DNA from: Perkinsus olseni
Taxonomy: Eukaryota; Perkinsozoa; Perkinsida; Perkinsidae
Direction: 5' to 3'
Assembly (NCBI GenBank): GCA_013115135.1
Contig: JABANP010000286.1
Location: 1 to 64,000, forward strand
Length of the DNA: 64,000 bases
Notes under the pieces: generated by a model
Databases searched by the model: none
What the model was told of the DNA's origin: nothing
The model's input: the letters and a program-made list of their open reading frames with translations, nothing else
Program-made: the position numbers and the translations under genes
Shown: positions 42,447 through 64,000 of the stretch, piece by piece
Layout: each line of letters begins with the position of its first letter
Position numbering within the stretch: the stretch's first letter is position 1

Positions 42447-42761
42447 CTGAAGAATGCTAATCCACTTTCAATCGCAAAAGTATTGCGATTGAATGTGTGC
42501 GAAATGTTTTGGTTATTTATCTCGCTATCAACTCAACTCGGTCAGAGTTACTATTAGAAATAGCTACTTATTAAATCGCTACCTATAATCTGTCACTCGT
42601 ATACGATTGTCATATTTGAAATAGCGGAGTCAAGTTGGATCATCGAGAGCAAATTCTGAGTGAGAAACTAATCGGCAGATATTACCAGACGTGAATCGGC
42701 TACGAACACGTCCAACACCTCCGACCAAAAGTACCATTCCCTCTACTCGGACGCCAGTTAC
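42447..42761 (-). other. Probable intron with a hairpin near its 3' end
   Basis: Donor AAG|GTAACTGG at 42761 and acceptor at 42447 on the minus strand. A 10-bp perfect hairpin (42468-42477/42483-42492) lies just before the acceptor, another case of a palindrome next to a splice site. Confidence 0.4.
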
Positions 42762-45158
42762 CTTCGCAAGCTGGTCCTAGTGGTTGTGGTGGTCGATTTG
42801 CTAGTACTAGTAGTTGAGGAATTGGTGGTAGTGCTCGTGGTCGTGCTGGACTTGGTCGTAGTGGTTGACGACTTGGTAGTACTGGTAGTTGAGGAATTGG
42901 TTGTAGTGCTCGTGGTCGTGCTGGACTTGGTCGTTGTGGTTGACGACTTGGTAGTACTGGTAGTTGAGGAATTGGTAGTACTAGTAGTTGAAGACTTGGT
43001 GGTAGTGCTCGTGGTCGTGCTGGACTTGGTCGTAGTGGTTGACGACTTGGTAGTACTGGTAGTTGAGGACTTGGTAGTACTAGTAGTTGACGACTTGGTA
43101 GTACTGGTAGTTGACGACTTGGTTGTAGTGCTCGTGGTCGTGCTGGACTTGGTCGTAGTGGTTGACGACTTGGTAGTACTGGTTGTAGTGCTCGTGGTCG
43201 TGCTGGACTTGGTCGTAGTGGTTGACGACTTGGTAGTACTGGTTGTAGTGCTCGTGGTCGTGCTGGACTTGGTCGTAGTGGTTGACGACTTGGTAGTACT
43301 GGTAGTTGAGGACTTGGTTGTAGTGCTCGTGGTCGTGCTGGACTTGGTCGTAGTGGTTGACGACTTGGTAGTACTGGTAGTTGAGGACTTGGTAGTAGTG
43401 CTCGTGGTCGTGCTGGACTTGGTCGTAGTGGTTGACGACTTGGTAGTACTGGTAGTTGAGGACTTGGTTGTAGTGCTCGTGGTCGTGCTGGACTTGGTCG
43501 TTGTGGTTGATGACTTGGTAGTACTGGTTGTAGTGCTCGTGGTCGTGCTGGACTTGGTCGTAGTGGTTGACGACTTGGTAGTACTGGTAGTTGAGGACTT
43601 GGTTGTAGTGCTCGTGGTCGTGCTGGTCTTGGTCGTTGTGGTTGATGACTTGGTAGTACTGGTTGTAGTGCTCGTGGTCGTGCTGGACTTGGTCGTAGTG
43701 GTTGACGACTTGGTAGTACTGGTTGTAGTGCTCGTGGTCGTGCTGGACTTGGTCGTAGTGGTTGTCGTCTTGGTTGTAGTAGTAGTGGTCGTCGTGGTTG
43801 TAGTGGTCGTGGTCGTAGTAGTTGTGGTCGTCGTGGTCGTAGTAGTTGTGGTCGTCGTGGTTGTAGTAGTTGTGGTCGTAGTAGTCGTGGTCGTAGTAGT
43901 TGTGGTCGTCGTGGTCGTAGTAGTTGTGGTCGTCGTAGTCGTGGTCGTCGTAGTTGTAGTAGTCGCCGTGGTTGTAGTAGTCGTGGTCGTCGTGGTCGTA
44001 GTAGTTGTGGTCGTCGTGGTCGTAGTAGTCGTGGTCGTAGTAGTTGTGGTCGTCGTGGTCGTAGTAGTTGTGGTCGTCGTGGTCGTAGTAGTTGTGGTCG
44101 TCGTAGTTGTGGTCGTCGTAGTTGTGGTCGTCGTAGTTGTGGTCGTCGTGGTCGTGGTCGTCGTGGTCGTGGTCGTGGTGGTCGTGGTCGTCGTGGTCGT
44201 TGTCGTGGTCGTGGTTGTCGTGGTCGTAGTAGTTGTGGTCGTCGTGGTCGTAGTAGTTGTGGTCGTCGTAGTTGTGGTCGTCGTGGTCGTGGTCGTCGTG
44301 GTCGTAGTAGTCGTGGTCGTAGTAGTCGTGGTCGTAGTAGTTGTGGTCGTCGTGGTCGTAGTAGTTGTGGTCGTCGCAGTTGTGGTAGTCGTGGTCTGTA
44401 GTAGTCGTGGTCGTAGAAGTCGTGGTCGTAGTAGTTGTGGTCGTCGTAGTTGTAGTCGTCGTAGTTGTGGTCGTAGTAGTTGTGGTCGTCGTGGTCGTGG
44501 TCGTCGTGGTTGTGGTCGTCGTGGTCGTGTGGTCGTGGTCGTAGTAGTTGTGGTCGTCGTAGTTGTAGTAGTCGTGGTTGTAGTAGTCGTGGTCGTGTGG
44601 TCGTCGTGGTCGTAGTAGTTGTGGTCGTCGTAGTTGTAGTAGTCGTGGTCGTAGTAGTCGTGGTCGTCGTGGTCGTAGTAGTTGTGGTCGTCGTGGTCGT
44701 AGTAGTTGTGGTCGTAGTAGTTGTGGTCGTCGTAGTTGTGGTCGTCGTGGTCGTAGTAGTTGTGGTCGTCGTAGTTGTGGTCGTCGTGGTCGTAGTAGTT
44801 GTGGTCGTCGTGGTCGTAGTAGTTGTGGTCGTAGTAGTTGTGGTCGTCGTGGTCGTAGTAGTTGTGGTCGTCGTAGTTGTGGTCGTCGTGGTTGTAGTAG
44901 TCGTGGTCGTCGTGGTCGTGGTCGTAGTAGTTGTGGTCGTCGTGGTCGTGGTCGTCGTGGTTGTAGTAGTCGTAGTGGTCGTAGTAGTCGTGGTCGTAGT
45001 GGTCGTCGTGGTCGTGGTCGTAGTAGTTGTGGTCGTCGTGGTCGTAGTAGTTGTGGTCGTCGTGGTCGTAGTAGTTGTGGTCGTCGTGGTCGTAGTAGTC
45101 GTGGTTGTAGTAGTTGTGGTCGTCGTGGTCGTAGTAGTTGTGGTCGTCGTGGTCGTCG
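42762..45158 (-). repeat. ACN (threonine-codon) array, Ser/Lys-Thr units then pure Thr
   Basis: On the minus strand 42780-43780 encodes TKSSTTT/STTTKSS-type units, with a higher-order repeat of about 60-75 nt, and 43780-45158 is almost pure ACN. Three small indels (about 44392, 44530 and 44594) shift the frame. It belongs to the same mucin-like coding strand as 53622-57126 and is cut off from it by two LINEs. Long Val- or Arg/Ser-rich frames on the plus strand are artefacts of the repeat. Confidence 0.8.
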
Positions 45159-45265
45159 TTTTTGTTTTGTTTTGTTAGTGAGGCTCTAGTGCGATATTTC
45201 CTGCCAATCGGCAGTATGACCGCTCGCCTCGCACCCGTGGGTGCTAGGTGATCAAATGCTCCCTC

Positions 45266-48200
45266 TCAGTGCCTCCGGGCCTGGCCTCCCCCCGAGGACC
45301 AGTCCGGTGCCACGAGACGTAGGAACTTGATCATCTTCCAGAAGCCGTCTCCACAGATACTCTCTCGAATCAGCCTCATCCCTTGCACTGTGGGTGTGTC
45401 CCTGGACCATCTCCCATCGGGGATCCGCCTCCGGAAGGCGGCCCACCTCGCCTTTCTCATTTCTCGAGACTCGCACCAGCACCAATGAACCAATGTCTCC
45501 TTGTGCTTGCCACAATGCCTACAGGTCATTGGCTGGTTTCCGTACTCCTTGCTTCTTCCCCTATAGCCCCTGGTATTGCTGTGGTAGCTCAGCAGCTCCC
45601 AAACCTTCCTCCTGGGGCCTCTCCTAGCCCTTAAACACCTCCTAGTTATGGTCTTCAGTTGCTCCCCGGCCGTACGTAAGGCCAATCCTATTGCACGCTA
45701 AGCCTCTGGCCTTTTTCTCCCATCTCTCTTCCAGCTCAACCTCCGCTCTTTGTCGGATCTCCCTCGCAGTGAAGTCGCCGGGGGCTGGCACTGAGCAGGT
45801 GCGTACGTTCCCTGCCTCTCCCCTCCGGCCAATGGATGCCGCTAGATCTGAGGCTTCATTCCCTGGATCCCCTGCATGCCCTCGCGTCCATGCAATGCAT
45901 ACCGTTATGCTGGCCGCCGTCAGCTCTTCCACGAGGGATCTTATCGACCTTATCAGCTCCGTCTCCTTGCTACCACCTATCGATTGGATGGCAGACCTCG
46001 AATCCAAGCAGATCTTGATGGCCTTTACTCCGTCTCCCCTCTCTCCTCCTTGATCAACTACTTCCTTGCTCCACTGGAGGGCTTTCAAAACTCCCAATTG
46101 CTCCGCCTGGCATATGTTTGCCGGACCGTCTATTTTGAACGGTCTGAAATCCTCTAGCCAGCCCGGTGCGTCGTACTTGTTATGTCTGACCTTAACGACA
46201 GCCGAGCCCACCTCCATCCTGGTTTTGCTCAACGCTAGCAGTGAGCCATCACTATAGTAAGTGAGAGTGCCGGGGGTTCCCTCATCGCGATCGATCCCTT
46301 CTGGTGCCAGCCGAAGATCCCTCGGTGGGTCCCAATCCCTCCCAATGTGGCGCTCTTTCGGGCCTTCAGGGTTCGAGACCCCCATTTCTTCAGAAGTTTG
46401 GCGATCCAACCCGGACATTCCGTGTCGTTGGTGTGCAGCCAGTATTTGGCTGTCCTACGTCTGGCTTCCCACCATATGGGGCGGGCTACAGTGGATGCCA
46501 CTTTCGCCATGAGCTCCGTGGGAGTTGCCCTAACACATCCCATCAACATTCGTCCAAGACAGGCCTCCAGTCTTGTACATTTATCCTGAAACCATTTAAG
46601 ATCCGAAGCCGGTGCCCATATCTCCACCGAGTAGAGCAGGGTTGATACCACCGATTGCTTCCACGTCTTCAGGAGTACCTCAGGGCTTGCTCCCCAGTCG
46701 GCCCCCGCCAGTCGTCTGCACCTCGCCACTAACGCTCCCGCCTTTGTCAGGGCCCTGCTGGCGTGGTTTCTCCAGTTTTTGGAAATCCATACCCCCAGCC
46801 ATTTCATTTCCCTCTTCAGGTGTACCACTTCCTCTGGTCGTTCCCTGCTGAGCTCCTCTCGGAGGAGCTCCTCCGTATCGTCCGTTAAGCACAGTATCTC
46901 GTGCTTTTCTGGATCGGTTGCCATGTCAGCCCTTCTCGCCCACGACTCGACCGAATCGGTCGACTGTGAGATCCCTCTGGACAGAGTTACTACATCCAGT
47001 GCCCGGATTATCGCCAGGGCGTCGTCAGCGAATATCCTAGGCTCCACTGTGAGAACCAGTCTCCCTCCTGCGCGAACCTCGTGGCGTAAGGATTTCTCCA
47101 GACTATACGTCCCTATGCTGAAGATACATGGTGAGAGGGATCCCCCCTGCGTGATGCCCCTCGTTCTCACTCTGCTGGACCCGTCCAGGACCACCTTGTT
47201 ATCGGCCAGGTAGCTCTCTATGAACTCTCCCCAGGCCGCTGATGATGTTGCCTTGATCACCGACTCCTTCAAGTGGGCATGTGACACGTGGTCGAAAGCC
47301 GATTTCAGATCCCAGGTGCATAGGGCCGTCTTGAGCCCATCCTTGTCCTTGTTATGTACTACTCTGGCCACGGCTTCCAGTGCCGTGGAGCAGCTGCGAG
47401 ACCTCGTGAACCCATGGACTCCTCTTGGCGGTGTCGTCCGAGCGGATATGCGGTTCTTCAGTAGAACCTCTATCGCTTTAGCCGTTGTTGCCGTGAGGGA
47501 TACTGGCCGGACTGCCCGAGGGCCTACCCCTCGTCCTTTATCCAATAACACCCAGTCTGCCCTTTTAAAGGGCATTGGGTGGTGCCCCTAATCTAGGCAG
47601 GACTCGACAAGCTTCGTGAACTGGATCCTCCAGCGGCATTCCGGATGCTCCATAGCTCTAACCACATGCTCGTAGGACGCCCCATCCCACCCCGGAGCTT
47701 TATTGCGTTTTCCCTTGATTTGCTTGAGCATCCTTTCCAGTTCCGCAGCTTGAATCTCCCCTCCCAATGGTCCTAGAAGGGATGGGCATCTAGTCCTGAC
47801 CACTGTGGTGCTCGGCCTGTTGTCCTCTCCTATATAGTAGGAGAGTACAGCTTCCCTTGTCGTATTCGGTCCTGGGCGTGTGCTTGTACTTGAGGAATTT
47901 GCTCGCCTCTCGTTCCGTGATTTCCGACATCCCCCTTTTGAAGCCCTGCCCCTTCGCTCTTGCGATTGCCTTGTTGTAGTCCTTGCGGGCTTGTTTCGCC
48001 TGCTCTCTGGCGCCCGCATCCGGCGCTCCCGTCCGGTGGGCCACCCTTAAGGATCTCTGTGCCTTCTTCAGTTTCTTCCGAAGCTGGTCCAACTCCCTAG
48101 TCCACCAGCTGGCCGTTGGGCGAGTTTTGCCCGCGGCTTTATTCTTCGGCGTCGAGACGACTAGAGCTTTTCTAAGAGAGCTCATCAGCTTCTCCGCCCA

Positions 48201-49026
48201 GTCATCTATATCCTTGGTGGAAGACACCTTGGGTGTCAGAATTGGCACTTTCCCAATGCTCTTATCAAATACCTCCCAGTTGGTTTTCCTGGGGTCCCTG
48301 CGAGACTTGGCCTTCCGTTGCTGGCCCATTGTCCTGAAGGTAGCGAGGATTCCTCGATGGTCCCCTATTGTGTCCGTCATCTCTGTTTTCACCCAGTGCA
48401 ATCCCCTCGAGGCTACCATGTCAATGTAGCTCGGCGACCTCGTTGGGTCATAGGGGATGAAAGATGGTCCCGCTCCCACATCATTAACCGACAGTAGGGA
48501 ATTCTCCAAGAGGAAGAATTCCAGGTCCTGGCCTCGCCTCCACTTCCCATCCGGGTCACTTCCTGTGAAGGTGTCGGGCGACCAAAGGCCCGAGCTCGCG
48601 TTCGTGTCCCCTCCCAGTATGAGGATTTCCTCTAGATCATCCGCGATCGCCTGGTCTAGACCCCTTATAGTTTCCGCCATGGGAATCAGTTTGTCAGCGT
48701 AGAGGCTAACAAATTTGGACCTCCAATTGTCCGTGCTGGCATGCACCACTGCTATGTCCTCTGGCTGTTGCTGGACTTGGGTGATCCTGCAATGGCGAGG
48801 TATCAAGATTGCTGCTCTACATAACTCTCTGGCCCCTGGGGTTCGGAGCTCTCGGGTTTCTGGCCGATCTAATTACCGTGAAACCATTATAGGTATCCTG
48901 GGTCATGAGATGTCGTGGGCACTCTTGTAGTAGAATGACCACGTCCTTCAATCCTTTGTCTACGATATTACACTTGAACCAGTCCTCTAAAACCCCCATA
49001 CTCTTACCTACATTGATCGATGCCAC
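45266..49026 (-). pseudogene. LINE1 ORF2: endonuclease, reverse transcriptase, RNase H
   Basis: Endonuclease from 49026 (ASINVGKSMGVLEDW; ILGGDTNASSGLW; SYIDMVASRG; IGDHRGI), reverse transcriptase 47575-46235 (AVRPVSLTATTAK; GVHGFTRSRSCSTAL; TWDLKSAFDHVSHAHL; GITQGGSLSPCIFSI; catalytic FADDALAI), RNase H 46418-45642 (YSDGSL; DSRSAIQSI; WTRGHAGDPGNEASD) and a C-terminal zinc motif CRHCGKHKETLVHWCWC. At least four frame breaks (near 48820, 47800, 47580 and 46300-45660) make it inactive unless they are assembly errors. Confidence 0.85.
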
Positions 49027-49142
49027 TGTAAGGTAAGTGTCTCCGGCAGCCTCTCTGGGGTTAGTAACTGGGCTGCCGTCGATTGGGGGTGATCAGTGTG
49101 AGCGTCCGGCCTCTCTCTGGCCGGATGAAAACCCATTATTGC

Positions 49143-49687
49143 TCAGTCCCATCTTCCAGTCGTCACCCAGGCCGCCAAGGGGGTTGCGTTCACTAGTGAA
49201 GAACCCACTGTACCCTGACTTTCCACCACAGAGCAGTACTCCGAAGATGCATCTGCTTCTGATGGCGCAGTGTCCGCCCAGTCGAATCTTGCTGCAGGTA
49301 GCGCACCCACTGCAGGGAGTGGGGATTCCATCCTGAGTGTAGCGCCCCTGCGGTTGGCCCCTACGGTATGTCCTCTGGGTTCTGGTCGTTCCTTCCTGCA
49401 ATTCCCCTCCAAGGCTGAATGCCCCGTAGCGTTACATATCGAACATACACGGTGAATGCCCCTGAAGCCTCTCACCTCCGGGCATTCCCGTACCTGATGC
49501 TTCTTGCCACAGTTGATACACTGTGGGCTTGCCGTACACTGATCTCCCACCACCGGGTGTAGCTTGCCGCAGCGGTAACACAGTGGGTTAGGGGACATTT
49601 TTGATATCCTGTAGGATCTTAGTCCGATAAAGACCTTACCCACCTTCAACACCCCTTGAAGATCCGTCCTAGGACCTTTAATTATAT
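49143..49687 (-). CDS. LINE1 ORF1 (gag-like) C-terminal part
   Basis: RNA-binding structural protein of the element. The fragment begins LKVGKVFIGLRSYRI and holds CCHC-type knuckles: CYRCGKLHPVVGDQC, CINCGKKHQVREC and CSICNATGHSALEGNC. The tail is Ser/Ala-rich and ends GRWD-stop at 49143. N-terminal part missing through 5' truncation. Confidence 0.8.
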
Positions 49688-50092
49688 TAGTAGTTGTGGT
49701 AGTAGTCGTGGTTGTAGTAGTCGTGGTCGTAGAAGTTGTAGTCGTCGTGGTTGTAGTAGTTGTGGTCGTCGTGGTTGTAGTAGTTGTGGTCGTCGTGGTT
49801 GTAGTAGTTGTGGTCGTCGTGGTCGTGGTCGTGGTAGTAGTCGTGGTCGTAGTAGTTGTGGTCGTCGTAGTTGTGGTCGTCGTGGTTGTAGTAGTCGTGG
49901 TCGTCGTGGTCGTCGTGGTTGTAGTAGTCGTGGTCGTAGTAGTTGTGGTCGTCGTGGTTGTAGTAGTCGTGGTCGTAGTAGTCGTGGTCGTAGTAGTCGT
50001 CGTAGTCGTGGTAGTAGTTGTGGTCGTAGTAGTTGTGGTCGTCGTGGTTGTAGTAGTCGTGGTCGTCGTGGTCGTGGACGTGGTAGTAGTCG
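49688..50092 (-). repeat. ACN array fragment between the two LINEs
   Basis: About 405 nt of threonine-codon repeat on the minus strand, framed by the 5' end of LINE1 and the 3' end of LINE2. It matches the unit types of both outer arrays, so the three arrays were probably one. Confidence 0.8.
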
Positions 50093-53000
50093 TTTTGTTT
50101 TGTTTTGTTAGTGAGGCTTCTGCGACTAGGCGCTACGCAACATGTCCTGACTGAGTCAGTATGGTTGCTAGCCTCGCGCTTATGAAAGCGCTGAGTCCGG
50201 GCCTTCCGGGCTCGTCTAAGTGTGAGTTCCTCCTGACCAAGTGGCTTGAGCTGGATCCCCCTAGTTCGAGCGACTGGAATCCAGTCAGGCACTACTTTGG
50301 TCAGGAATTTATTCAGGCCGCTATTACGTTCGCATACCGCTTTCCTTAAGAGTCTCAGCCCCCTGATCTTGTCCGACTCGTTACCCGGGCCGACTTCTAG
50401 TATGTTCCTGTTTAAGTTGTCGGTACGGGCACGCCTCATTCTGGCTGAGTTACACCAGAAGAAGTGTGCTATCGTTTCCTTCTCCCTGCCGCAATACCTG
50501 CATTGTTGTGTGGCGTTGCCATACCTTTTGCTTCGTCCCTTAAAGCCTCGAACGTTGCCATGGTAGGACAGGAGTTCCACAAATTTCCTTCTTTGTATCT
50601 TGCTCCATCTAGTAGTTCTCCTCATTATGGAGCGCAATTGTATGAGCCCTAATGATAACCCCAGTCTGTTGACTGCTAGGGGGCTGCCCCTCTTCTGCCA
50701 AATTCCCTCAATTTCTTTATCCATTGTTTTCCGGATTTCCTCGAATGTGTGAGAGACCGGAGTCTCTACCCGTACAACTTTTATGTCGGTACTCGTGCCG
50801 GACCCTCCTTTCCTTGCAGCCCAGTCCGAGAGTTCGTTGCCTGTTGTACCACAGTGCCCTTTGACCCATGATATAGTGGTGAGAGTCCCGGAAGCGCAGA
50901 TGCTTTCGAGTGTATCTCTTAACCGGACAATTTGTGGCGTAGGCCTGTCGCTTGTGATGCTTTGTATGGCTGCTCTCGAGTCTAGCCATATCTGTGCTTC
51001 CCGTAATGGGCGCTCGTTCCTGGCTATGGTTTCTTCTATCAATAGGGCTGCTTCTGCAACTCCGGCCAATTCGGCTTGACATATGTTTGCTCCGCCCACT
51101 AGCCGTATCGAGCGCAAGCTAGCCACTCCCAATTGATTGAGAGTAGCCAGTCCTGCCCCTGTTTTGTTGGTCTGGTTGGGCACTTTCAACAGTGAACCAT
51201 CGGTGAACACCACCAATTGATCCTCCGTGGACGTTGACGGAGCTGAGCCACTTCCTATATTGATCTTCATCCGGCTAGGAGCTTGCCAGTCAGTCTTCGT
51301 CCTGGACTCCCTTTTCAGGTGTGGGTCTTTTACTCCCCATTTCCTGAGTCGTTTTTGCCAGTGTGTCGGTGTGACAATGTCTGGATTGTGCATCCAAAAC
51401 TTTGCGCATCTCTTCCTTCCTGTCGTTCTGACCGGTTCTGTTATGCTCTGTAGTACCTTGCTCATCAGAGCGTTGGGTGTAGATCTGATGCATCCGTAGA
51501 TGAGCTTAGCCATAGAGGCTTCTAATCGCGTGATACCTTTAATCACTTTGGCCGAGTCCAGTGATTCTCCCCATGCCTCAACCCCATATAATAGACTGCT
51601 GACGATCTGCTGTTTCCAGAATAAAATGAGCTCCGGAACGGCCGGGCCCCAGCTTGAGCCCCCTAATTTCCTGCACTGCCCTATAGTGGCCAGAGATTTT
51701 GCTATGGCCTCTACGGCGTGGTTCTCCCAAGAGTTCGATATCCTAGCCCCAAGCCATTTCAGACTATCCTTGACGGCGAGATGGTGACCGTTGCCTGGTT
51801 CGATCGCTGCTGCCTCCTGCAGCATGTTCCTATGGTACTCCGAAGGGCAGCAGACATTGTGTTTGGTGGGGTCAGTAGCCAAGTCTGCTCGATCTGCCGC
51901 CCTCCCTACTATCTCCGTGGCGGCCTTCAGGCCCCTCAACAGACCCCGTCCCGTCAGTGCTCTGATGATCGCGAGGACGTCGTCGGCATATATCAGTGGG
52001 TGTATCTGGTAATCTCCGTTGTCTACCGTAAGGTTGTTGTCAAGGTCCCATGTACTGATTGCGAATAGGACAGGCGACAAGGAACCACCCTGGCTGATCC
52101 CTCGAGTGCGGACTCTCTGCTCACCATCGAGATGGATGGTGTGTCCTGTGAGGAACGATTCGATGATGTGCTGCCATGCCCTCCCTGCTTTGCGACCTAT
52201 CGAGTTGATGATGTGCCTATGGCTTATTTTATCGAAGGCGCTCTGTACATCGAAGGTGGCTATTGCCAGATCTTCTTTACCCGATCCGCTGAGTTCTCTC
52301 GCGACCTCTACGAGTGCCGTGCTAGTGGAGCGACCGGCCGTGAATCCGAAGACCCCAGGCGGTGCTTGGCCACACGCTTTCTCGAGCCTATCTTTGAGCA
52401 GCATCTCCACGTACTTGCTTAAGACGCTTGTCAAGGAGACGGGGCGGAAGGCCCGCGGGCCTATTCCTCTTCCTTTAGACAGTAGGAAGAGGTCACATCT
52501 TTTGAGGCAGCTGGGAAAGTGGCCCCATTCCAAAATAGAGTTCACTAGAGCCTCCAGCTGTTTGCCCCATACCGGTGAGGATATGCCCGCTACCAGGTGC
52601 TCGTACGTGACCTGGTCGTATCCTGGAGCTTTGCCCTTTTTCTGTGATATTTTCTTCACCACTCTTTTTATCTCCGTCTCGCTCAAGGCTCCGCCTAGGT
52701 CGTCTAGTAGATTTGGGCACCGAATCGCTGGTGTGGCATGTCTTTCTGTCTGTGTGCCGATATAATAGTCAAGTATTTCTTTGACGTCATAGTCCTCTTT
52801 CTTGGGGGCTCGTGCCTTTGTTCTTCTGCCTATGTCCTGCGATGTGAGGGAACAGGCCGTTTCTCTGTAGTACACTAGTTTTGCGTTCTTGATGGCATTA
52901 AAGTACGCTCTCTTGTGTGCTTTAGTATTATCAATCAGGAGATCTAGGCTTTGGGAGCAGCTACCGAGCCCGGTTGGCAGGCCCCTCCTGGCATTCTTCA

Positions 53001-53621
53001 ACTTCTGCTCGGCTATCTTCAGTTCCTTCCGCTTGGCCTCTAGGTTCCGGTTCCACCAAGGTGCAGACGTTCCCACCCTGCGGGGAGTCTTTTGTTTCGG
53101 GGTGGATCTGCATATCGCCGAGCGTATGGAAGCCATAATTGCTTTTGCCCACAGATCTATGTCCCCCGTATTGTTTATTATGGGGATTACTGGGCATGAA
53201 CTGTCGATAATATCGCGAAACTTCTCCCAGTTAGTCCTTCCGGGGAGGCGGCGTTTCTTGGAGGTGGGGGAGCCTTCGTCCGTAAGTTTGAATAGTGTCC
53301 CCAACGCTAGGTGGTCCCCCGTAGTGTCGAGGTTGTAAGTTTCCAGGGGAAAAGCCCTACCTGTCGATGCGATAAAGTCTATGAATGTGCCCGATATGCT
53401 ATGATCGTGGGGCTCGAATGACGGGATATTCTTGTTGTTGCTGCATATTGTGAGATTCTGGCTGGAGAGCATGTCCTCAAATGCTCGGCCTCTCCTCCAT
53501 CCAATAGGGTTCCTAGAGTTAGGTATCGCGTGCCATAGAGGTGAGTATGCGTTGGAGTCACCCCCGACGATAGTCGCATTGTGTTTGCCCCGCTGGCCGA
53601 TGACGGTTTCGAGGCTGTTGA
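50093..53621 (-). mobile_element. LINE copy 2, 5'-truncated, inserted in the ACN array
   Basis: A second LINE in the same orientation, clearly different in protein sequence from LINE1. Starts at ~53621 inside the endonuclease domain and ends with GCCTCACTAACAAAACAAAA joined to ACN repeats at 50093. The array resumes on both sides. Confidence 0.87.
50093..53621 (-). CDS. LINE2 ORF2: partial endonuclease, reverse transcriptase, RNase H (open)
   Basis: Open over its whole length. Endonuclease C-terminal half (IVGGDSNAYSPLWH; FIDFIASTG; TTGDHLALG), reverse transcriptase (AFRPVSLTSVLSK; GVFGFTAGRSTSTALVEV; TFDVQSAFDKISHRH; GISQGGSLSPVLFAI; catalytic IYADDVLAI), RNase H (FTDGSLLKV; DSRAAIQSI; WVKGHCGTTGNELSD) and zinc motif CRYCGREKETIAHFFWC. 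There is no stop before the element end: the frame runs RRSLTNKTKQN and on into the repeat, where it reads as Tyr/His/Asp until 49687. The first in-window ATG is 53472, but truncation makes the true start unknowable. This is the least damaged mobile ORF in the window after the MULE. Confidence 0.88.
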
Positions 53622-56600
53622 GTGGTCGTCGTGGTCGTGGTCGTCGTGGTCGTGGTCGTCGTGGTCGTGGTCGTCGTGGTCGTAGTAGTCGTGGTCGTAG
53701 TAGTCGTGGTCGTGGTCGTGGTCGTCGTGGTCGTAGTAGTCGTCGTGGTCGTAGTAGTGGTCGTGGTCGTGGTCGTCGTGGTTGTGGTCGTCGTGGTCGT
53801 GGTCGTCGTGGTTGTGGTCGTCGTGGTCGTAGTAGTTGTCGTAGTTGTGGTCGTCGTGGTCGTAGTAGTTGTCGTAGTTGTGGTCGTAGTAGTTGTGGTC
53901 GTCGTAGTTGTGGTCGTCGTGGTCGTAGTCGTCGTAGTCGTCGTAGTCGTAGTAGTTGTGGTCGTCGTGGTCGTAGTAGTTGTGGTCGTCGTGGTCGTAG
54001 TAGTTGTGGTCGTCGTGGTTGTAGTCGTCGTGGTTGTAGTCGTCGTAGTCGTAGTAGTTGTGGTCGTCGTGGTTGTAGTCGTCGTGGTTGTAGTAGTTGT
54101 GGTCGTCGTGGTTGTGGTCGTCGTGGTTGTAGTAGTCGTGGTCGTAGTAGTCGTGGTCGTAGAAGTCGTGGTTGTAGTAGTTGTGGTCGTCATGGTTGTA
54201 GTAGTCGTGGTCGTAGTAGTCGTGGTCGCAGTAGTCGTCGTAGTCGTAGTAGTTGTGGTAGTAGTCGTGGTCGTGGTCGTAGTAGTCGTGGTCGTAGTAG
54301 TCGTGGTCGTAGTAGTCGTGGTCGTCGTGGTCGTGGTCGTCGTGGTCGTCGTGGTCGTGGTCGTCGTGGTCGTAGTAGTCGTGGTCGCAGTAGTCGTCGT
54401 AGTCGTAGTAGTTGTGGTAGTAGTCGTGGTCGTAGTAGTCGTGGTCGTAGTAGTCGTGGTCGTAGTAGTCGTGGTCGTCGTGGTCGTGGTCGTCGTGGTC
54501 GTAGTAGTCGTCGTGGTCGTGGTCGTCGTGGTTGTGGTCGTCGTGGTCGTGGTCGTCGTGGTCGTAGTAGTTCTCGTAGTTGTGGTCGTAGTGGTCGTAG
54601 TAGTTGTAGTCGTAGTAGTTGTAGTAGTCGTGGTCGTAGTAGTCGTGGTCGTAGTAGTCGTAGTAGTTGTGGTCGTGGTCGTCGTAGTAGTTGTGGTCGT
54701 GGTCGTCGTGGTCGTAGTAGTTGTGGTCGTCGTGGTCGTAGTAGCCGTGGTCGTAGTAGTCGTGGTCGTAGTAGTTGTAGTAGTCGTGGTCGTAGTAGTT
54801 GTGGTCGTAGTAGTTGTGGTCGTAGTAGTTGTGGTCGTCGTGGTCGTCGTGGTTGTAGTAGTTGTGGTCGTAGTAGTTGTGGTCGTCGTGGTTGTAGTAG
54901 TCGTGGTCGTGGTCGTCGTGGTTGTAGTAGTTGTGGTCGTCGTGGTCGTGGTCGTAGTAGTTGTGGTCGTCGTGGTCGTCGTGGTTGTAGTAGTTGTGGT
55001 CGTAGTAGTTGTGGTCGTGGTCGTCGTGGTTGTAGTAGTCGTGGTCGTCGTGGTCGTAGTAGTCGTGGTCGTAGTAGTCGTGGTCGTGGTCGCGGTCGTA
55101 GTAGTTGTAGTCGTGGTTGTAGTAGTTGTAGTAGTCGTGGTCGTCGTGGTTGTAGTAGTTGTAGTAGTTGTAGTAGTTGTAGTAGTTGTAGTAGTTGTAG
55201 TAGTTGTAGTAGTCGTGGTCGTCGTCGTAGTTGTAGTAGTTGTGGTCGTGGTCGTCGTAGTTGTAGTAGTCGTGGTCGTGGTCGTGGTCGTCGTAGTTGT
55301 AGTAGTTGTGGTCGTGGTCGTGGTCGTGGTCGTCGTAGTTGTAGTAGCCGTGGTCGTGGTCGTCGTAGTTGTAGTAGTCGTGGTCGTGGTCGTCGTAGTT
55401 GTAGTAGTTGTGGTCGTAGTCGTGGTCGTGGTCGTCGTAGTTGTAGTAGTTGTGGTCGTGGTCGTCGTAGTTGTAGTAGTTGTGGTCGTGGTCGTCGTAG
55501 TTGTAGTAGTTGTGGTCGTGGTCGTCGTAGTTGTAGTTGTAGTTGTAGTGGTTGTGGTTGTGGTTGTGGTCGTCGGAGTTGTAGTAGTCGTGGTCGTGGT
55601 CGTCGTAGTTGTAGTAATCGTGGTTGTGGTCGTCGTAGTTGTAGTAGTTGTGGTCGTGGTCGTGGTCGTCGTAGTAGTTGTGGTCGTGGTCGTCGTAGTA
55701 ATTGTGGTCGTCGTGGTCGTGGTCGTGGTCGTCGTAGTTGTAGTGGTCGTGGTCGTGGTCGTAGTAGTCGTGGTCGTCGTGGTCGTCGTAGTTGTAGTAG
55801 TTGTGGTCGTGGTCGTCGTAGTTGTAGTAGTTGTGGTCGTGGGCGTCGTAGTTGTAGTAGTTGTGGTCGTCGTAGTTGTAGTAGTCGTGGTCGTCGTAGT
55901 TGTAGTAGTCGTGGTCGTCGTAGTTGTGGTCGTCGTGGTCGTGATTGTAGTGATTTTAGTCGTAGTGGTTGTAGTCGTGGTGCTCTGCTTTGTAGTAGCA
56001 CTAGTCGTGGTGCTCTTGGTTGTGGAAGTCCTAGTCGTCGTACTCTTGGTCGTAGTAGTCCTAGTCGTCGTACTCTTGGACGTAGTGGTCCTAGTCGTAG
56101 TGCTCTTGGTTGTCGTAGTCCTAGTCCTAGTCGTAGTGCTCTTGGTTGTTGTAGTCCTAGTCCTAGTCGTAGTGCTCTTGGTTGTTGTAGTCCTAGTCGT
56201 GGAAGTCATAGTTGTTGTAGTCCTAGTCGTGGAAGTCATAGTTGTAGTAGCACTTGTCGTGGAGCTCATAGTTGTAGTAGCACTAGTCGTAGAGCTCTTA
56301 GTTGTAGTAGTCCTAGTCGTAGTGCTTTTTTGGTTGTAGTAGTCCTAGTCGTAGTGCTCTTGGTTGTAGTAGCACTAGTCGTGGAGGTCATAGTTGTAGT
56401 AGCACTAGTCGTAGTGCTCTTGGTTGTAGTAGTCCTAGTCGTAGTGCTCTTGGTTGTAGTAGTCCTAGTCGTAGTGCTCTTGGTTGTAGTAGTCCTAGTC
56501 GTAGTGCTCTTGGTTGTAGTAGTCCTAGTCGTAGTGCTCTTGGTTGTTGTAGTCCTAGTCGTGGAAGTCATAGTTGAAGTAGCACTAGTCGTGGAGGTCA

Positions 56601-57126
56601 TAGTTGTAGTAGCACTAGTCGTAGTGCTCTTGGTTGTAATAGTCCTAGTCGTAGTGCTCTTGGTTGTTGTAGTCCTAGTCGTAGTGCTCTTGGTTGTAGT
56701 AGTCCTAGTCGTGGAAGGCATAGTTGTAGTAGCACTAGTCGTGGAGGTCATAGTTGTAGTAGCACTAGTCGTGGAGCTCATAGTTGTAGTAGCACTAGTC
56801 GTGGAGCTCATAGTTGTAGTAGTGTCAGAGGTAGTACCCGAGGTCGTAGTGGTCTCAGTTGTAGTGGTTCTTCTCTTCGAACGCTTCAACATGCGTTGAC
56901 GATCTTCGTACTCCATACCAGATATCTCTACACTACTTTGATAATCTACACTAACAGATCTAGGTTCATCATCACCCAATGTGGTAGTAGTAATGCTATA
57001 ATCACAATTGTTATAGGCTGGCTGAGCGTCCATCTTCGCAGCCCCAGTCACCAGCGGGACCTTCTCAGCTGAAATAACCGACAGAAATAAATTAAGAATA
57101 ACAGTGATGGCCAAGGTGCGAGCCAT
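53622..57126 (-). CDS. Signal-peptide, giant Thr-rich mucin-like protein (5' part, interrupted)
   Basis: ATG at 57126 opens MARTLAITVILNLFLSVISA, a strong signal peptide, followed by a ~65-residue non-repetitive region (YNNCDYSITTTTLGDDEP; SSVEISGMEYEDRQRML; RSKRR). Then come repeats of TTTKSTTTRT / TTTMTSTTSAT type to ~55990 and almost uninterrupted Thr (ACN) down to 53622. The Thr frame stays open for ~880 codons. Near 56330 a T run is 2 nt longer than in sister units and shifts frame. Predicted role: densely O-glycosylated surface or secreted mucin. LINE2 ends the reading frame at 53621; downstream arrays (49688-50092 and 42222-45158) are the likely lost 3' part. Confidence 0.7.
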
Positions 57127-58124
57127 TAGCGCTATTGACGCGAAAAAACCGGAAGCATACACTAAGGCAAAGCAGAAGACTTGAAAGATCACCTTACCCG
57201 CGTGGACCACCCGATACTGGATACTAGCCCATAAACGAACGCAAGTAAAATATAGATCGCATTGAAGTGCTAACACTCGGACTAGAAGTCGTGAAAGGTT
57301 GAAGACGTTCAGACGAGCAAGTATAGTGCGGAATATCTTACTCGCGCGGACCGATGAAACGCTCGCAGAGCTAAGCCTTGTGCGTGCAGAATCCTTGTGA
57401 CACTCTTCCCTGTGCGTCGGGGCCCGTGGCGAACTTACTTAACGAAACTCGTTTTAATCATCATGACTTCTCCGGGCATCGACTGCGATAGTGGCTCGCC
57501 GGGCGCCTGGCTTGCTATTTCCCAGGCAGTCGATGAGAGCACATTACGATGATGTATATTTGATTAACAGACTGTGATGTACATCAACTAATGCAATGTT
57601 GACAACTCTTTCCACGGCCTTTCTCGACCGCAAGTTTAAGCCCTGTGAACTGATTCTCCACGTGGTCGGACGATGCCCCGCGACTGGAAACAGAGCACGC
57701 GTGTCGGGCAGGGCCGTATAGTACAGACCCTACTAATCGCAGTACTATGACGGCTAGGTTATAAGCCGAAGTAACGCGTGCCATAGCACAGACTGATTGG
57801 AATGGCTACTCTATAGCGTGGGGTGGTGAGATTGAAGTCTCAGCTCTGACTGAAGCAACCCGCATTGGGCTCGTGAACGAACCGCGTGCGCGAGGTTTCA
57901 CGTGTATCCCGGGGGCGAAGGCCGTCGTTGTCGTGTAGGACTGGCCAACGGTTCAGGGGAGTTTTCAACCAACAGTCCTCGCACACATCGCGTAATGGGG
58001 GGTAGAGGGTAGGTACGTACCCGGGGGTAGGTTAAAGGGAAGTTTTGACGCTTCATTCGGTGGTCTCTGTACAAGTCGGCCGCAAAGCTCGGCAAAGTGT
58101 CTCTCTATCCACGGGCGATGTTGT
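57127..58124. other. Upstream of the mucin gene, intergenic
   Basis: No gene recognised. Should contain the mucin promoter on the minus strand; no element identifiable. Confidence 0.4.
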
Positions 58125-58183
58125 ACCCTCGAATCGAACCCGCGACCTCGAGCGTGTAAGCCAGGTGGCCCAACCAGCCGACC
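58125..58183 (-). mobile_element. tRNA-Val(TAC)-like SINE head or tRNA pseudogene
   Basis: Minus strand from 58183: GGTCGGCTGGTTGGGC, then an arm with TTACAC in the loop position, GAGGTC, then GCGGGTTCGATTCGAG (T-arm/B-box). The 3' acceptor strand does not pair with GGTCGGC, so not a functional tRNA. Confidence 0.5.
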
Positions 58184-59468
58184 AAACTTGCAAAAAATTT
58201 CTGTGCTGATTAGTCATGGGTAGCGATACACTCTTTCGACTTGTCTGACTTGTTAGTACTCCCGGCTTGCCTCGCACGGTCTGGGACTCTCTATGGGATG
58301 AATATATGTGAATGGAGCGCCCGAACAGGGATCATGCGGCATATGCAAAGCGAGGCAATTATCCTCCTGCCGCTCCCTCCGAGCGAGTCCCTCGGGTGCA
58401 GCTGAAGGCAGACCAAATGCTGATCGTGCGCCTTCTCATTTTGTCTTCGCTCAGATTCCGGTTCTACCCACCAAAGGGACTCCTTCCATCCCTGTTCCAA
58501 TGCCTCAGACACCGAGTCGCTTCCATTCTCTTTGATGTCATCAAAAGAGGACTCGGAACCTATCGAGCGCCGATGGAGGCCGCCTCATTGGGAGTTCCAG
58601 GGTTTCCTGCGTCTGGATAATGATGAGAAACCAGAAGATATCGAAGAAGGCATCCAAAGGCTTCGCCAGCGCGTATCTGCTCGGTTCGGAGATACTGACA
58701 ATGCTATGAAGCATAGCCTATGATCTCTACCTGCAACCATAGATATCCCACGAAACCCAATAATTATGCATACTTGAAGTGCGTCCAGCAGTGCTGAATC
58801 AGCACGACGGTCGTCCTGTACGGTATCGCGTTGTTATCAACCGTGAGAATCACAATTTTCGTCTCGAAAACTATAGGAACAACAAGGATAATGAGGGTGC
58901 GGAGCGCGGGTCCATTGACAGTCTTTACAGAACTACTAGGTGCCTGACTCGCTGCGAGAGCGCATGTTACAAGTGCTAGAAGTGTCGAGACCAACCACTG
59001 CAATTAACACACATCAGCACTCCAGCTCTACACCCACTACGAAGTAGTTGGCATCGAGATGACCCTCGCATGGATTGGCGCATATATTGGAGTCTTCCAC
59101 ACCGAGCGAGCAGACTACTTAGCTAACGAAGGTCGGCTCACGGGAACAAAATTTGATGTCCCGACGCCGATAGCAACCACAAACAGCAGCGACATGGTCG
59201 CGAACCTTACCTTCAATTCTTTCCAGTGAACTCTTCACACTAGTATCTGTGATGGGAAAAGCACCCATTTGTAACAGCAACAGGACTCCTGTTACAGGAG
59301 CATTCTTATCTTCCGCTGAGCAGAGTCCGCTCCATGGCAGCGGAACACACTTGGCATGGCTAGAAGTAATGACAGAGGAGCACACTCTTATACGAGAAAC
59401 TCTTTGAAGATCCGGTATCCCGCCTGTTGATTATTACAACTTTTCCAATCTTGAGCCTTTGCTCCCTG
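58184..59468. other. Intergenic with weak secreted-protein signal
   Basis: A minus-strand frame at 59003-58764 reads VSTLLALVTCALAAS, signal-peptide-like, but lacks an ATG and may be part of an exon after a TTAATTGCAG acceptor. ORF 59119-59385 (minus) has no recognisable domain. Nothing else supported. Confidence 0.3.
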
Positions 59469-59575
59469 TTGTAGTGGTAGCAGTAGCTCTGGTCGTAGTT
59501 GTGGTCGCCGTAATGGTAGTAGTACTTGGGGTCGTCGTGGTAGTTTTGTTTTTCTGTGAGGGAACGGCAGTTCGC
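59469..59575 (-). repeat. Short ACN array joined to a LINE-type 3' end
   Basis: Minus strand: CCCTCACAGAAAAACAAAAC (59563-59544) followed directly by ~75 nt of threonine-codon repeat (59543-59469). The junction is very similar to both LINE 3' junctions, and the frame entering it reads CRSLTEKQN against RRSLTNKTKQN in LINE2. Probably the 3' stub of a third, strongly truncated or diverged insertion. Confidence 0.5.
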
Positions 59576-59587
59576 CACTAGCATAGC

Positions 59588-59616
59588 GGTATGCCCGTAT
59601 AATATACGGGCATACC
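59588..59616. repeat. Perfect 13-bp hairpin
   Basis: Arms 59588-59600 and 59604-59616 are exactly complementary around AAT. It lies 20-45 nt from the LINE-like stub. Confidence 0.75.
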
Positions 59617-60791
59617 GGCGTATATCGGATATACTATATCCCTCTACCGCAAGACTGATATTTTTTTTGTCAGCTAGCCCGAATAGGGCCACAACGAGCG
59701 GAAGGAACAGACCAGACCATCTCCTTGCCTCCTGGCAGGATTCGCTGGGGCTGTGTTCGACGACCGAAGCGCTAGCACTGCTGCGGTCCAACACGTGAGT
59801 TCCATCTCCAGGACTCGAGAGCCCAATGGGCGAGCTAGTCCAACTGCTAGTGTGTGCCGTCATCCCCCGGCTGGACTCCAGCCGCTGGAGATTTAGTATC
59901 AGCGAGTTCCATTACGGGTTTTCCTATTAACCATTAACTAGTACCAGCCCGTAACGGGTCCGTTCCGTCACATACGGAACTTCCGTATTTTTACACACAC
60001 ATGTTACATTGAGGAATTGTCAGTCACTACAGCACAATGTTCGTGGTGAGTTACTTGGGCATTTCCTCAAAGCACGAGTAGTAGGACGGTCATACTAGGA
60101 TCAGTTACCCCCGCTGCGCACGCAACCAGACCACCACTACTACCAGCACGACCGCAACCACTAGTACTGCGATGGACAGCGATGCTAGTCTAGCGTATTG
60201 AATACGCCGTATTCCGATCTAAGCACAAGTTTTCAGCCCCGCAACGTACCCAACCGAATGCGGTTGCCCCAGACAGCACCGAAGGCGTGGCCTCGTTCCG
60301 GACAAAACCGAAAGCGGGCTTCAAATTTCAGAAAATGCACGTATCATTTCTTTGCTCGTCAAAATTCTTCCTTCCCACTCGTCTTCCCCACTCTGGGGTT
60401 ACTGTTCTTGGAAATTTGTTAGCCGCCAGAGTTCCTCTCTCTTGTCCCCGCTAGCCAGATCTTCGCAGCTTGGTACGCAGGCGTGGAGTGTTTCCAGAAT
60501 GGCAATCCCAGTGTTAGTAGTCTGCCCATTGAGAACACTGCTCTGGTTTGAGTTTGACATAGATAACCGTACTGTTTGAAGTGGATGTTACTCAGTCTCA
60601 AAAGCTTACAATTAAAAGTAGTAATATCAATAATATCTAGCGCTAGAGAGACAACATAGCTGACAGTGGATTATACGACGCAATATAGAGACATCGCAAG
60701 ACAGCAAGATCACGATACTATAATCGCGTTACACTTACAAACCACCCCCGCACCGTTCATATCACAACGGGGCGAGCATAACAATACGCGA
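59617..60791. other. Possible 3' LTR zone of the retroelement, not delimited
   Basis: No gene. The retroelement coding region ends at 60792, so a polypurine tract and 3' LTR should lie here on the minus strand. A pyrimidine-rich stretch on the plus strand at ~60424-60442 could be the polypurine tract, but without the 5' LTR in the window the LTR cannot be defined. GCGTATTGAATACGC palindrome near 60193-60207. Confidence 0.3.
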
Positions 60792-63700
60792 TTATAGCTG
60801 ATGGGCATAACTAACCATCCTCGAACACTTACGGACTGGTCTAGTACGTATAGCACTTGAAGCCGCAGCATCATGATGGCCATTGCCGTGACCACTATCA
60901 GCATCCTCATCATCAGTCTCCTCACATCGATCACGCTTAGAGCTCGCAGCTTGTGGAATTTCCCCATCATCATCACAGAACTTCTTCACATAGCGCAAAT
61001 GAACCTCTCGTAAAGTGCCATTATCGTCCTTAATGATGCAGCGTAGACCACGCAGGGCGACAACTTCCTGAGGCTTCGACCAACGAGGGGCAAGCTTGCT
61101 AGGCGACCTCTCAGCCAGCAATACCCTATCACCGACCTTCAGCGACTCCTTGGTCTGCTTCCGGGCTAGAGTCTGATCGAAGCTATTACGAGCTTCTTCA
61201 CGGCGCTCCAGCCAAATCATATTGAAGTCTCGAAGGCAGTCATCCCGCCTTCTGCGGATATCAGAAGCGCGCTTACGCAGAACCTCAACCAACTTGGCTT
61301 CTTCCGCAGCAACATCTTCGCCAGAGGCTTCCTCTAGATTGATACCACCGAAAACTCCTTGAGAAGACCAACGGTCTCGCGGCGCAATGTCGTCAAGAGA
61401 AGCAGGTGGCTTGGGAATGGTACCGGTCATCAGCATTTGAGGCGTGGTATCACGAGCACCTCGCCAATCCATACCATAGCTGTTGAGTTGATTTTGCAGC
61501 ATAGCAGCCAAGGCAAAAGGAGAGTTTACATACATGGCGCCGGTACCATATTTGAGATCGAGCAAGAACTTCCGCAAACTAGAGGCAAGATCCTTATGTC
61601 GGCGTTCATAATACCCTCCTGTCCATGGAGAATAGCCCACCGCTACTGTATTCTGTACTCCATGCGCTAATAACCACGACGCCACCTCTTGAGACACCAG
61701 ATTGCCCCCACCATCGCACCGCAAATGCCTCGGATAGCCATACAGGCTAAAGGCATAAAGGTATGCGTTCACGACGCAGGCCGAATCCACAGGCTGAGGG
61801 AGAGGAACCAATACGGTAAAGCCTGTATAAGCACAGGTTATAGTCAGCATCGCCGTCCAATGCAAATTGAACTCAGACTCAAGCTCCCTACCGAGCATAA
61901 ATATATCCGATCCAACCGAATACCATGGCAGCGGAACTTGAAGACGCTGTCCAGATCTCGACACGCAGAGATCTGAGGCACACTTAGTGGAGCGCTGGCA
62001 CACTTCACATTTTCTCACAAACGCCTTACAGTCTCGGCGTAAGGTAGGCCACCAATAAGCCAGCTGTACCATGCCGGATAACATTTGAGCAGATCCATGA
62101 ATCCCATACTCATGAAACTCGCCCAATATAGAAGAGCGAAGGCCATCACAATCAGGCATAACAGCCTGCTTAACGACCGGCTCATCAGCTCGCCATCGAC
62201 CTAGATGGAAAAGGAAGTCCTCCTCCACACAGAACTGGCGACCCTCCCTGCGATCTTTCTCACAGGATTCGCGGATCTTAACCAACTGCTCATCTTTCTT
62301 CTGCTGAGAAGACAACCACAACATAGCCTCCTCGTAACTATCCTTCCCTGAGAAAGTAACCATGACAGAGTGCATCTTCTCATCCGGGACAGTTAGTTGG
62401 TTATAAACATCATCTACCTCGCGCTTAGTTCTATCATCGACATTAAGCTCATTGGAGGAATCATCAGCACGAACAGGAAGCACTTTCACCTCACCAGCCA
62501 CATCGCCGCCAAGGTCATCGTCGGCCAGCCTTCGGGCAGACATATCTGTCCAACGAAGGGCATCCACCTCTCGAGGCAACCACACACACTTATCAACATA
62601 TGCCTCAAAGAGCTCCCAACGCTTGATCCATACACCGGCATATGGCTCAGACGTATAGCCGAAATCACCCTGAACATCGCGCCAAGTCTTACACAGATTG
62701 GCGTTATCATTCAGACTAATAACGCGGTCTCCTCTTAGAGCATCCAGATTCTCCGACACGCACTGCAGCTGTGCCCCTCGTTCCCGCCACGTAGAACTTC
62801 TCAACTGCTCTCTCTTCTTCCACACTCCTCCGCAGAGACGAACAGGGAGAACCCTATAAGTCATTCCACTAGGAGGCATGGGGAAAATATCATCACAGGG
62901 GCTGACATTATACAGTCGTTCCTCAAGTTCCGGGAACAAAGCAGGACAAGCCGAGTCAGCGTTCAACACCACCACCCCTAAAATAGCGCCATACCATGAC
63001 TGCACATTAGAATCAGTGACTACCAAGGTGGCTATACAGCGACCCAAATACAGAGGCGTGAGACCCCTCATAAAACTCTGAGCCAACACATGCCAAGCAA
63101 CAGACACCTCCTTCCATTGTGCGTCTTCAACAGCATCATTATTGAGCAATTTCTTGACAACACCATTGAGACAACGCAGAGCATCTTGGTCCTGGTCTTC
63201 CAACCAATGGCCAAACCACTGGAAGACACCAGCCCATTTCCTCAAGAACTTAAGCCTTGCAGACGAGGACTTACATTTCTTAACGAAAATCTCCCACTCG
63301 GCTTCAAAGGCGGCCGATGACAAGTCTCGCCGCTGTGGGCAAGGAGTGAGCAGAGGCAGTCCAATTTCGCGGCCGGAAATCATATGGCCGCAGAAGACCA
63401 GATGATCAGTAGCTCTCTGAACCTTAGAGTCACGACACTCAAAACCGAAGCTCCTCACCACCTTAATCAGAGCATCCAATCCATCATTAACCATTTGAGC
63501 AGTAGGTCCAGCAACAATAACATCATCTTGAAGGCTGCGGAGGCTACAATCAATACCCAAATCCTTCAAATTTCGGCGAGCCTCCACAAGCATCACCTCC
63601 ACCGAACGACCAAATAGGCCTGACGATTGCTTATAACCCATAGGCAGCCTATTCCAGGCGAAGACTACTTCAACGCCTTGATCGTCCAACACTCTCGTCG

Positions 63701-64000
63701 CCATATGCTTCTGCATCTTGGAGCTTATATACACTCCGTGAAAAGCATCTCGCAAATCTATGCGACCAAAGTAGGCCCCATGACTACGAGGAAGGGAGCC
63801 AATAAGATCGTTCACTCCGTATTGAGAGAGCTTACTTCTATCCTCGGATTCCAAAGAAGGCGTGCTTGTACCGATCTTATTAGTGAATCTCAGATCCAAG
63901 GTAACCCTGAAATGAGCCAACAACTTCTCGTCATCCTTCTTTTTCAAGAATATCAGGCAAGACCTTCCAAGACTCCGCACCCTTCTTGGCCACTAGAACA
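60792..64000 (-). CDS. Ty3/gypsy-order retroelement pol (partial at window end)
   Basis: Runs off the window; ORF from at least 63980 to the stop at 60792 (~1062 aa visible). Reverse transcriptase ~residues 20-210 (FRVTLDLRFTNK; RIDLRDAFHGVY; RLPMGYKQSSGLF; catalytic LQDDVIVAG instead of YxDD), RNase H from ~315 (D323 in VTDSN, E402, D425), HHCC zinc finger ~622-661 (HEYGIH; CEVC), integrase core D692, D756 (RCDGGGN) and E792 (YYERRHK) with exactly 35 residues between D756 and E792, and a C-terminal SH3/chromo-like segment (KVGDRVLLAERSPSKLAPRW). RT before integrase is the Ty3/gypsy order. Open throughout, so potentially recent. No envelope gene seen. Confidence 0.88.

Follow-up and report, generated by a model that had tools for sequence, protein, structure and literature searches.

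Whether long interspersed nuclear elements (LINEs) can use protein-coding threonine repeats as an integration site is the question raised by one contig of Perkinsus olseni, a parasite of clams and other molluscs. The contig (JABANP010000286.1, C208 here) belongs to an assembly of 61.5 Mb and 968 contigs (GCA_013115135.1). The window, meaning the whole stretch of DNA that was analysed, comprises its first 64,000 nucleotides. It contains two LINEs in the same orientation within an array of ACN (threonine) codons. From these elements, their copies, and further LINEs in the assembly, it is quite likely that several P. olseni LINE families integrate preferentially, and in a fixed orientation, into ACN-rich repeat DNA that codes for threonine.

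Both elements lie on the minus strand, which is the sense strand of the ACN codons, between three ACN blocks. Element 1 (family A1, about 45159 to 49687) is a 5’-truncated LINE with interrupted reading frames. Element 2 (family A2, 50093 to 53620) is a 5’-truncated LINE with reverse transcriptase (RT; PF00078) and RNase H (PF00075) domains and a (CAAAA)n tail. The ACN block on the 3’ flank of element 1 spans 42773 to 45158 on the minus strand, with a mean local ACN fraction of 0.80 (42773 to 45154) and a best single-frame value of 0.06 on the plus strand. The block between the elements (49688 to 50092, minus) has corresponding values of 0.99 and 0.01 over 49682 to 50095, and a single-frame minus-strand value of 0.97 over the same interval. 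The block on the 5’ flank of element 2 (53621 to 56820, minus) has values of 0.88 and 0.01 over 53622 to 56820.

The two elements share a 26-nucleotide 3’ end, AGCCTCACTAACAAAACAAAACAAAA. For element 2 it occupies 50093 to 50118 (minus) and is followed by (A)CG ACT ACT ACC. For element 1 it carries one additional A (45159 to 45185, minus) and is followed by (A)CG ACG ACC ACG. The 3’ untranslated regions (UTRs) upstream of this end differ, and the RT regions are 45% identical, which places the elements in two families. The 5’ truncation was observed directly. The A1 copies on C474 and C376 extend at least 266 bases further 5’ than element 1, up to near the contig ends, and element 2 starts inside a stretch that aligns with the endonuclease open reading frame (ORF) of element 1. 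A preliminary description of the window had reported two different 5’-truncated LINEs, similarly oriented in one ACN array, with an identical 3’ terminus leading into ACN codons. All of these statements and their coordinates hold, and each family also has copies elsewhere. A target-site duplication was sought for elements 1 and 2, and no clean one was found.

The preliminary description had further proposed threonine-codon repeats as a homing site, and the genome-wide copies of A1 and A2 bear this out. Six exact matches to an 18-nucleotide terminus, CTCACTAACAAAACAAAA, occur in the assembly (C208 twice, C145, C123, C376, and C474), three in each family. At all six copies, three to four CAAAA units are followed by ACN-rich DNA in the sense orientation. 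Three more matches with one or two mismatches have surroundings without a LINE tail by eye. These inexact matches are at chance level, because the backwards control pattern of CTCACTAACAAAACAAAA also matches six times when up to two mismatches are allowed. Searches of the DNA with element 2 and with the 3’ end of element 1 listed no further A1 or A2 copies at 85% identity or above. The other A2 copies, on C123 (99%) and C145 (94%), both adjoin ACN arrays. Most A1 and A2 copies are therefore not in non-repeat DNA, and those off ACN are two old A2 fragments, on C266 and C923.

The three A1 copies (C208, C376, and C474) are 99.8 to 99.9% identical over 4.5 kb. Their flanks are different, which rules out a single duplicated event. 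Their targets are a pure ACN array, a 30-bp repeat coding for TSGPVTSTTT, and the Thr/Ser linker of a gene whose Cys-rich modules are repeated. This last gene is the one on C474, and its relatives have a similar layout (FOZ60_002228, FOZ60_011497; short P. olseni proteins). A gene-family target is ruled out, since the C474 gene and the C208 host gene differ by eye and in their database relatives. The C376 and C474 junctions contain 10 ACN codons out of 20, below the 60% ACN threshold of the script used to mark arrays. The target, first described as a microsatellite, is thus ACN-rich Thr/Ser-coding DNA and not strictly a microsatellite.

ACN targeting extends beyond the two window families, with different and looser fidelity. 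On the contigs carrying A2, ACN arrays occur together with several LINE families, most of whose copies share an orientation that matches the ACN sense. Six further families (C and F1 to F5) were examined. Family C is 5.6 kb in length, has three copies that are 99.0 to 99.4% identical, and ends in a (CA)n tail. The tails of F1, F2, F3, and F5 are (CAA)n, and that of F4 consists of CAAAA units. Genome-wide searches were made with the 3’ ends of C, F1, F2, and F3 only. Two of the family 3’-end searches were crowded by simple-repeat cross-matches (at least 488 and 66 matches), and the copies are those among the matches listed.

Each junction was scored by the number of ACN codons among the first 20 codons after the LINE tail, and a junction with at least 8 of 20 was called ACN-rich. 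ACN-rich junctions in sense were found for A1 at 3 of 3 copies, A2 at 3 of 3 (3 of 5 with both old fragments included), C at 6 of 8, F1 at 2 of 3, F2 at 1 of 3, F3 at 4 of 5, F4 at 1 of 1, and F5 at 0 of 1. Five of the six further families therefore join ACN as well, to a varying degree. Most copies of A1, A2, C, F1, F3, and F4 are on one target in one orientation, in small numbers. When the eight families are pooled, 20 of 27 junctions are ACN-rich in the sense orientation and none of the 27 in antisense; the preference and its orientation are both direct observations. Standing outside the 27 junctions are the two A2 fragments on C266 and C923, an F3 copy (C145:77245) whose 3’ end is lost in an inverted repeat, and short fragments on C912, C296, C490, C335, and C85. 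The inverted F3 3’ end (C145:77245-78307) is near the contig end and is either a real palindrome or an assembly artefact. The same contig contains an ACN-rich tract of approximately 15 kb (45492 to 60831, marked by the threshold script), which is far longer than a usual microsatellite.

Some copies within the 27 share the same 3’ flank pairwise, namely family C copies C123a and C123b, family C copies on C145 and C207, and F3 copies on C130 and C207. Each of these three pairs may represent a duplication. The independence of the insertions is approximate and holds only where flanks differ. With same-flank copies merged, 17 of 24 junctions are ACN-rich. With the C208, C145, and C123 copies removed, except for the two A2 copies found by pattern, the count is 13 of 19, in which some shared flanks are still counted.

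The background consisted of 43,478 windows from both strands of 153 kb, a non-random set made up of the rest of the window, 60 kb of C123, and the fetched loci. At least 8 of 20 ACN codons occur in 0.069% of these windows, versus six of the six exact-terminus copies. Two control families were also scored. Family F6 has a (GAA)n tail and, by protein match (31 to 33%), is roughly as near to A as F1 and F3 are. Twelve of its 24 places were fetched for 3’ flanks and all 12 were scored; the query copy, on C231, diverges from the family before the tail. None of the 12 junctions is in ACN, and the highest score is 5 of 20. Family F7 is abundant, and 12 of its 42 listed places were fetched, of which 11 were readable; none of these is in ACN. 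Against the 23 F6 and F7 junctions, Fisher p values are 2.4e-8 for 20 of 27, 1.6e-7 for 17 of 24, and 1.1e-6 for 13 of 19. Chance association is excluded by the background frequency together with the control families.

Several points weigh against the proposed preference for ACN. The 8 of 20 cut-off was chosen after the junctions were read, and at 12 or more of 20 only 15 of 27 remain, with C376, C474, C686, and both C123 family C copies dropping out. Array contigs were where families C, F2, F3, and F5 were first encountered, and F4 came from a contig picked for its A1 copy. A recent family C copy on C855 (98%) is not in an ACN run. Old copies also lie outside ACN, on C24 (83%), C63 (78%), C266, and C923, the last two being the A2 fragments (82 to 83% identity), which join non-ACN DNA. 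F2 (1 of 3) and F5 (0 of 1) do not show the preference, with 1 of 4 together despite their (CAA)n tails, and one of the three F1 junctions is outside ACN as well. It follows that (CAA)n alone does not confine insertion, and an AC-containing tail is not sufficient for insertion into ACN. A clean target-site duplication was not found in two of the three full-length family C copies. The search with the element 2 protein scored 41 of 170 candidates and matched 37 loci, and the 3’ junction reading left out 14 of these (C661, C843, C466, C568, C148, C325, C267, C530, C334, C130:46438, C477, C940, C826, and C423). On C842, the contig stops before the LINE end. One of the 14, the small contig C843, has a LINE matched by the element 2 protein near ACN-like repeats (1174 to 2175 and 4777 to 5262).

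One target-site duplication was observed directly. The assembled family C copy at C123:62050-67550 has ACTACTCAGTCC at both ends, a duplication of 12 bp. Repeats make such duplications hard to recognise, and the 12 bp were seen in this family C copy only. In two of the three full-length family C copies, the 5’ and 3’ flanks are different repeat types, a mismatch that would come from recombination between near-identical elements or from assembly.

The elements have RT, 5’ truncation, and a simple-repeat 3’ tail of variable length, as expected of LINEs. The RT domain RVT_1 was found in A1, A2, C, F2, F3, F4, and F5, and F1 was recognised by protein match only. Element 1 has an apurinic/apyrimidinic endonuclease (APE)-type domain (PF14529) and an RT, together with an RNase H that scores under the curated cut-off. 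PF14529 is above its cut-off in A1 and below it in F3 (20.7 versus 27.4). PF00075 is above its cut-off in A2 and F2 and below it in A1 and C. The elements can thus be assigned to the class with an APE-type endonuclease and RNase H, though these were not found in every family, and several of the scanned pieces are incomplete. An ORF1 piece of element 1 is zinc-knuckle-like by eye and is without a Pfam match. A solved-structure search gave no match for the A1 endonuclease stretch, and for element 2 it matched only R2, group II, and related RTs. The element 2 protein is 99% identical to FOZ62_026218 of P. olseni.

An RT tree was constructed from families of the P. olseni genome, with F1, F6, and F7 left out, and eight relatives from public sequences. 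A1, A2, F3, and F4 form one starred group, and C, F5, and a further copy on C145 form another. F2 is unplaced, and most other forks are open.

The families that hit ACN have AC-containing tails and the (GAA)n-tailed F6 is dispersed, an association of tail type with target that was observed directly. Because of it, pairing of the RNA tail with the nicked NGT strand is suggested. An endonuclease preference is probably needed beside the tail, because the (CAA)n tail alone does not confine insertion. A1, A2, F3, F4, and F6 have a comparable 3’ hairpin, a stem-internal loop-stem structure with AUACUG directly before the tail and z values of -1.8 to -3.2. It was located at window positions 45159 to 45270 and 50093 to 50200, and in locus pieces L042 (6800 to 7500), L029 (1380 to 1500), and L059 to L070. 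The hairpin is comparable in these five families although their tails and targets differ, and it is probably the part bound by the reverse transcriptase. The 3’ UTRs of F1 and F3 contain internal GTGGTN tracts that are complementary to the ACN sense strand (L043 280 to 370, L045 85 to 160, and L029 approximately 1580 to 1660). These tracts might contribute to target recognition. A fixed insertion register was also considered, as the ACN-rich junctions have one register per tail type; it was not used, since parsing of the AC tail forces most of it.

The following sequence of events is proposed. The LINE endonuclease would nick the strand complementary to ACN (the NGT strand), for which it would have a preference. 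The RNA would be held by the reverse transcriptase through its 3’ stem-loop, and the (CAAAA)n, (CAA)n, or (CA)n tail may anneal to the nicked NGT strand and help prime cDNA synthesis. Synthesis would often stop early, leaving a 5’ truncation, and second-strand cleavage approximately 12 bp away would produce a short target-site duplication. The outcome would be a sense insertion with its tail merging into ACN codons. Target-primed reverse transcription with a target preference would give both the fixed orientation and the merging of tail and target. ACN repeats could then be a renewable landing zone, comparable to ribosomal DNA (rDNA) for R1, with insertions presumably tolerated by the host.

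Other processes could leave a similar pattern. LINEs might insert broadly, with selection sparing only those in long ACN arrays that are dispensable, or they might cluster in silent regions. C145, C123, C208, and C126 each hold ACN arrays with several LINEs, and insertions in unique genes would often be purged. Such permissive regions are an improbable explanation, however, given the one-sided orientation (20 sense versus 0 antisense, n = 27) and the diverse non-ACN sites of F6 and F7 in the same genome (0 of 23 flanks). In addition, two A1 copies occupy a short Thr/Ser linker and a different 30-bp repeat, respectively. It is also very improbable that the pattern results from misjoined arrays and near-identical LINEs. 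The arrays are long and repetitive, the two family C copies with mismatched flanks and the inverted copy at the end of C145 would fit misassembly, and the LINE reaches to within 169 bases (C474) and 8 bases (C376) of the contig end. A 12-bp match between the C123a 5’ flank and the C145 3’ flank means that some flanks may be swapped. Swaps within one family would still leave ACN flanks, though, and misjoins are not expected to impose one orientation. The pattern moreover recurs on C208, C145, C123, C126, C130, C207, C376, C474, C686, C900, and C39, with several flanking repeats, and is in none of the 23 F6 and F7 flanks.

The arrays could alternatively be a consequence of the LINEs, if (CAA)n-like tails expanded into ACN after insertion. 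The tails are simple repeats and have AC in common with the array, and those of the F1 copy on C39 and of F5 are long (CAA)n runs. RTE retrotransposons are reported to generate microsatellite families in Lepidoptera (PMC2887409). Expansion of (CAAAA)n or (CA)n does not yield ACN, however, and on this ground the A and C tails were ruled out as the array source. ACN is also present 5’ of several copies, a 30-bp minisatellite and the coding linkers of a Cys-rich gene are among the targets, and an identical 12 bp flanks one family C copy on both sides. An origin of the arrays from LINE tails is accordingly scarcely credible, and insertion into existing ACN-rich DNA is the preferred reading.

Other mobile elements have comparable habits. 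Waldo, of the R1 clade, targets ACAY repeats, and Kibi, Koshi, and Dong are reportedly non-LTR (long terminal repeat) retrotransposons that target microsatellites. TcTREZO of Trypanosoma cruzi is a repeat element that prefers a surface-protein gene family. It is gene-family specific, whereas in P. olseni ACN-rich DNA is the common factor of different host genes. The R1-clade elements R1, TRAS, SART, and Waldo resemble the P. olseni LINEs in target preference, APE-type endonuclease, and a 3’ end able to pair with the target. They differ in that their target is rDNA or telomere and not coding ACN DNA; the likeness is one of mode. According to PMC2718515, the R1 target-site duplication is 14 bp, with 8 to 13 in variants, and R1 transcripts carry flanking target sequence that presumably anneals to the bottom strand, much like the pairing suggested for the RNA tails of the P. 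olseni LINEs. The 12 bp of the one family C copy are similar in size to the duplication given there. In PMC4640811, known LINE targets are listed as rRNA, tRNA, and spliced-leader genes, telomeric repeats, transposons, and microsatellites, and target-specific APE-encoding LINEs fall in the Tx1 and R1 clades. The same paper states that Togen targets (TG)n and some HERO families target microsatellites, and places both in the group encoding a restriction-like endonuclease (RLE). Togen and HERO share with the P. olseni elements a concentration of insertions in simple repeats. They belong to the RLE group in that account, whereas the endonuclease of the P. olseni elements is APE-type, evident in A1 and weak in F3, and the P. 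olseni target is a degenerate threonine-codon trinucleotide common to several divergent families.

The host gene at C208 begins with an ORF at 56821 to 57126 (minus), MARTLAITVILNLFLSVISAEK..., which is signal-peptide-like by eye and leads into the ACN array. FOZ60_015965 of P. olseni has 80% identity to this gene start, with 86% of the 100-residue query covered. The host frame as assembled is broken upstream of element 2, where translation in frame 0 from the ATG at 57126 meets a stop after 286 codons. At the other end of the locus, the distal part of the 3’ array contains repeats interrupted by K/S and ends in ...TSLRR before AAG/GTAA. This ending, TSLRR followed by a splice-donor-like AAG/GTAA, lies at window positions 42740 to 42790 and also closes two ACN stretches on C123, at approximately 61770 and 76205, which suggests paralogous host genes with a shared exon boundary. 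The mucin-like surface genes envisaged in the preliminary description are only partly supported. One host has the signal-peptide-like N-terminus, and another host is a Cys-rich protein with Thr/Ser linkers. A 1062-aa ORF at 60792 to 63980 (minus) has RT and integrase domains and represents an LTR-type retroelement near the threonine-rich gene. In this ORF, PF17921 (zinc-binding) is above the cut-off and PF00665 (integrase core) is just below.

No account of LINEs targeting threonine-codon repeats, or of LINE target sites in Perkinsus, was found in the open-licence literature, judged by titles, abstract openings, or term counts, and a threonine-coding target common to divergent LINE lineages appears to be new. 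A broader reading is offered tentatively, at somewhat less than an even chance. In it, a guild of LINEs drawn from two or more distinct branches of the RT tree would use threonine-codon repeats as a shared, renewable zone, with the tail unit of each helping to choose the target. As part of the same tentative reading, a switch from a (GAA)n tail to a (CAAAA)n or (CAA)n tail would go with a shift from dispersed to ACN-directed insertion, the hairpin staying comparable. If so, protein-coding low-complexity DNA would take the role that rDNA and telomeres have elsewhere, and retrotransposition would be coupled to the way in which mucin-like proteins evolve.

Several lineages share this degenerate, codon-defined target, which places insertions within the coding sequence of threonine-rich proteins in a shellfish parasite. 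With comparable 3’ hairpins and different tails, one family dispersed and others directed, these LINEs form a natural comparison for target choice. They may also give rise to fast structural change in protein genes that are rich in repeats.

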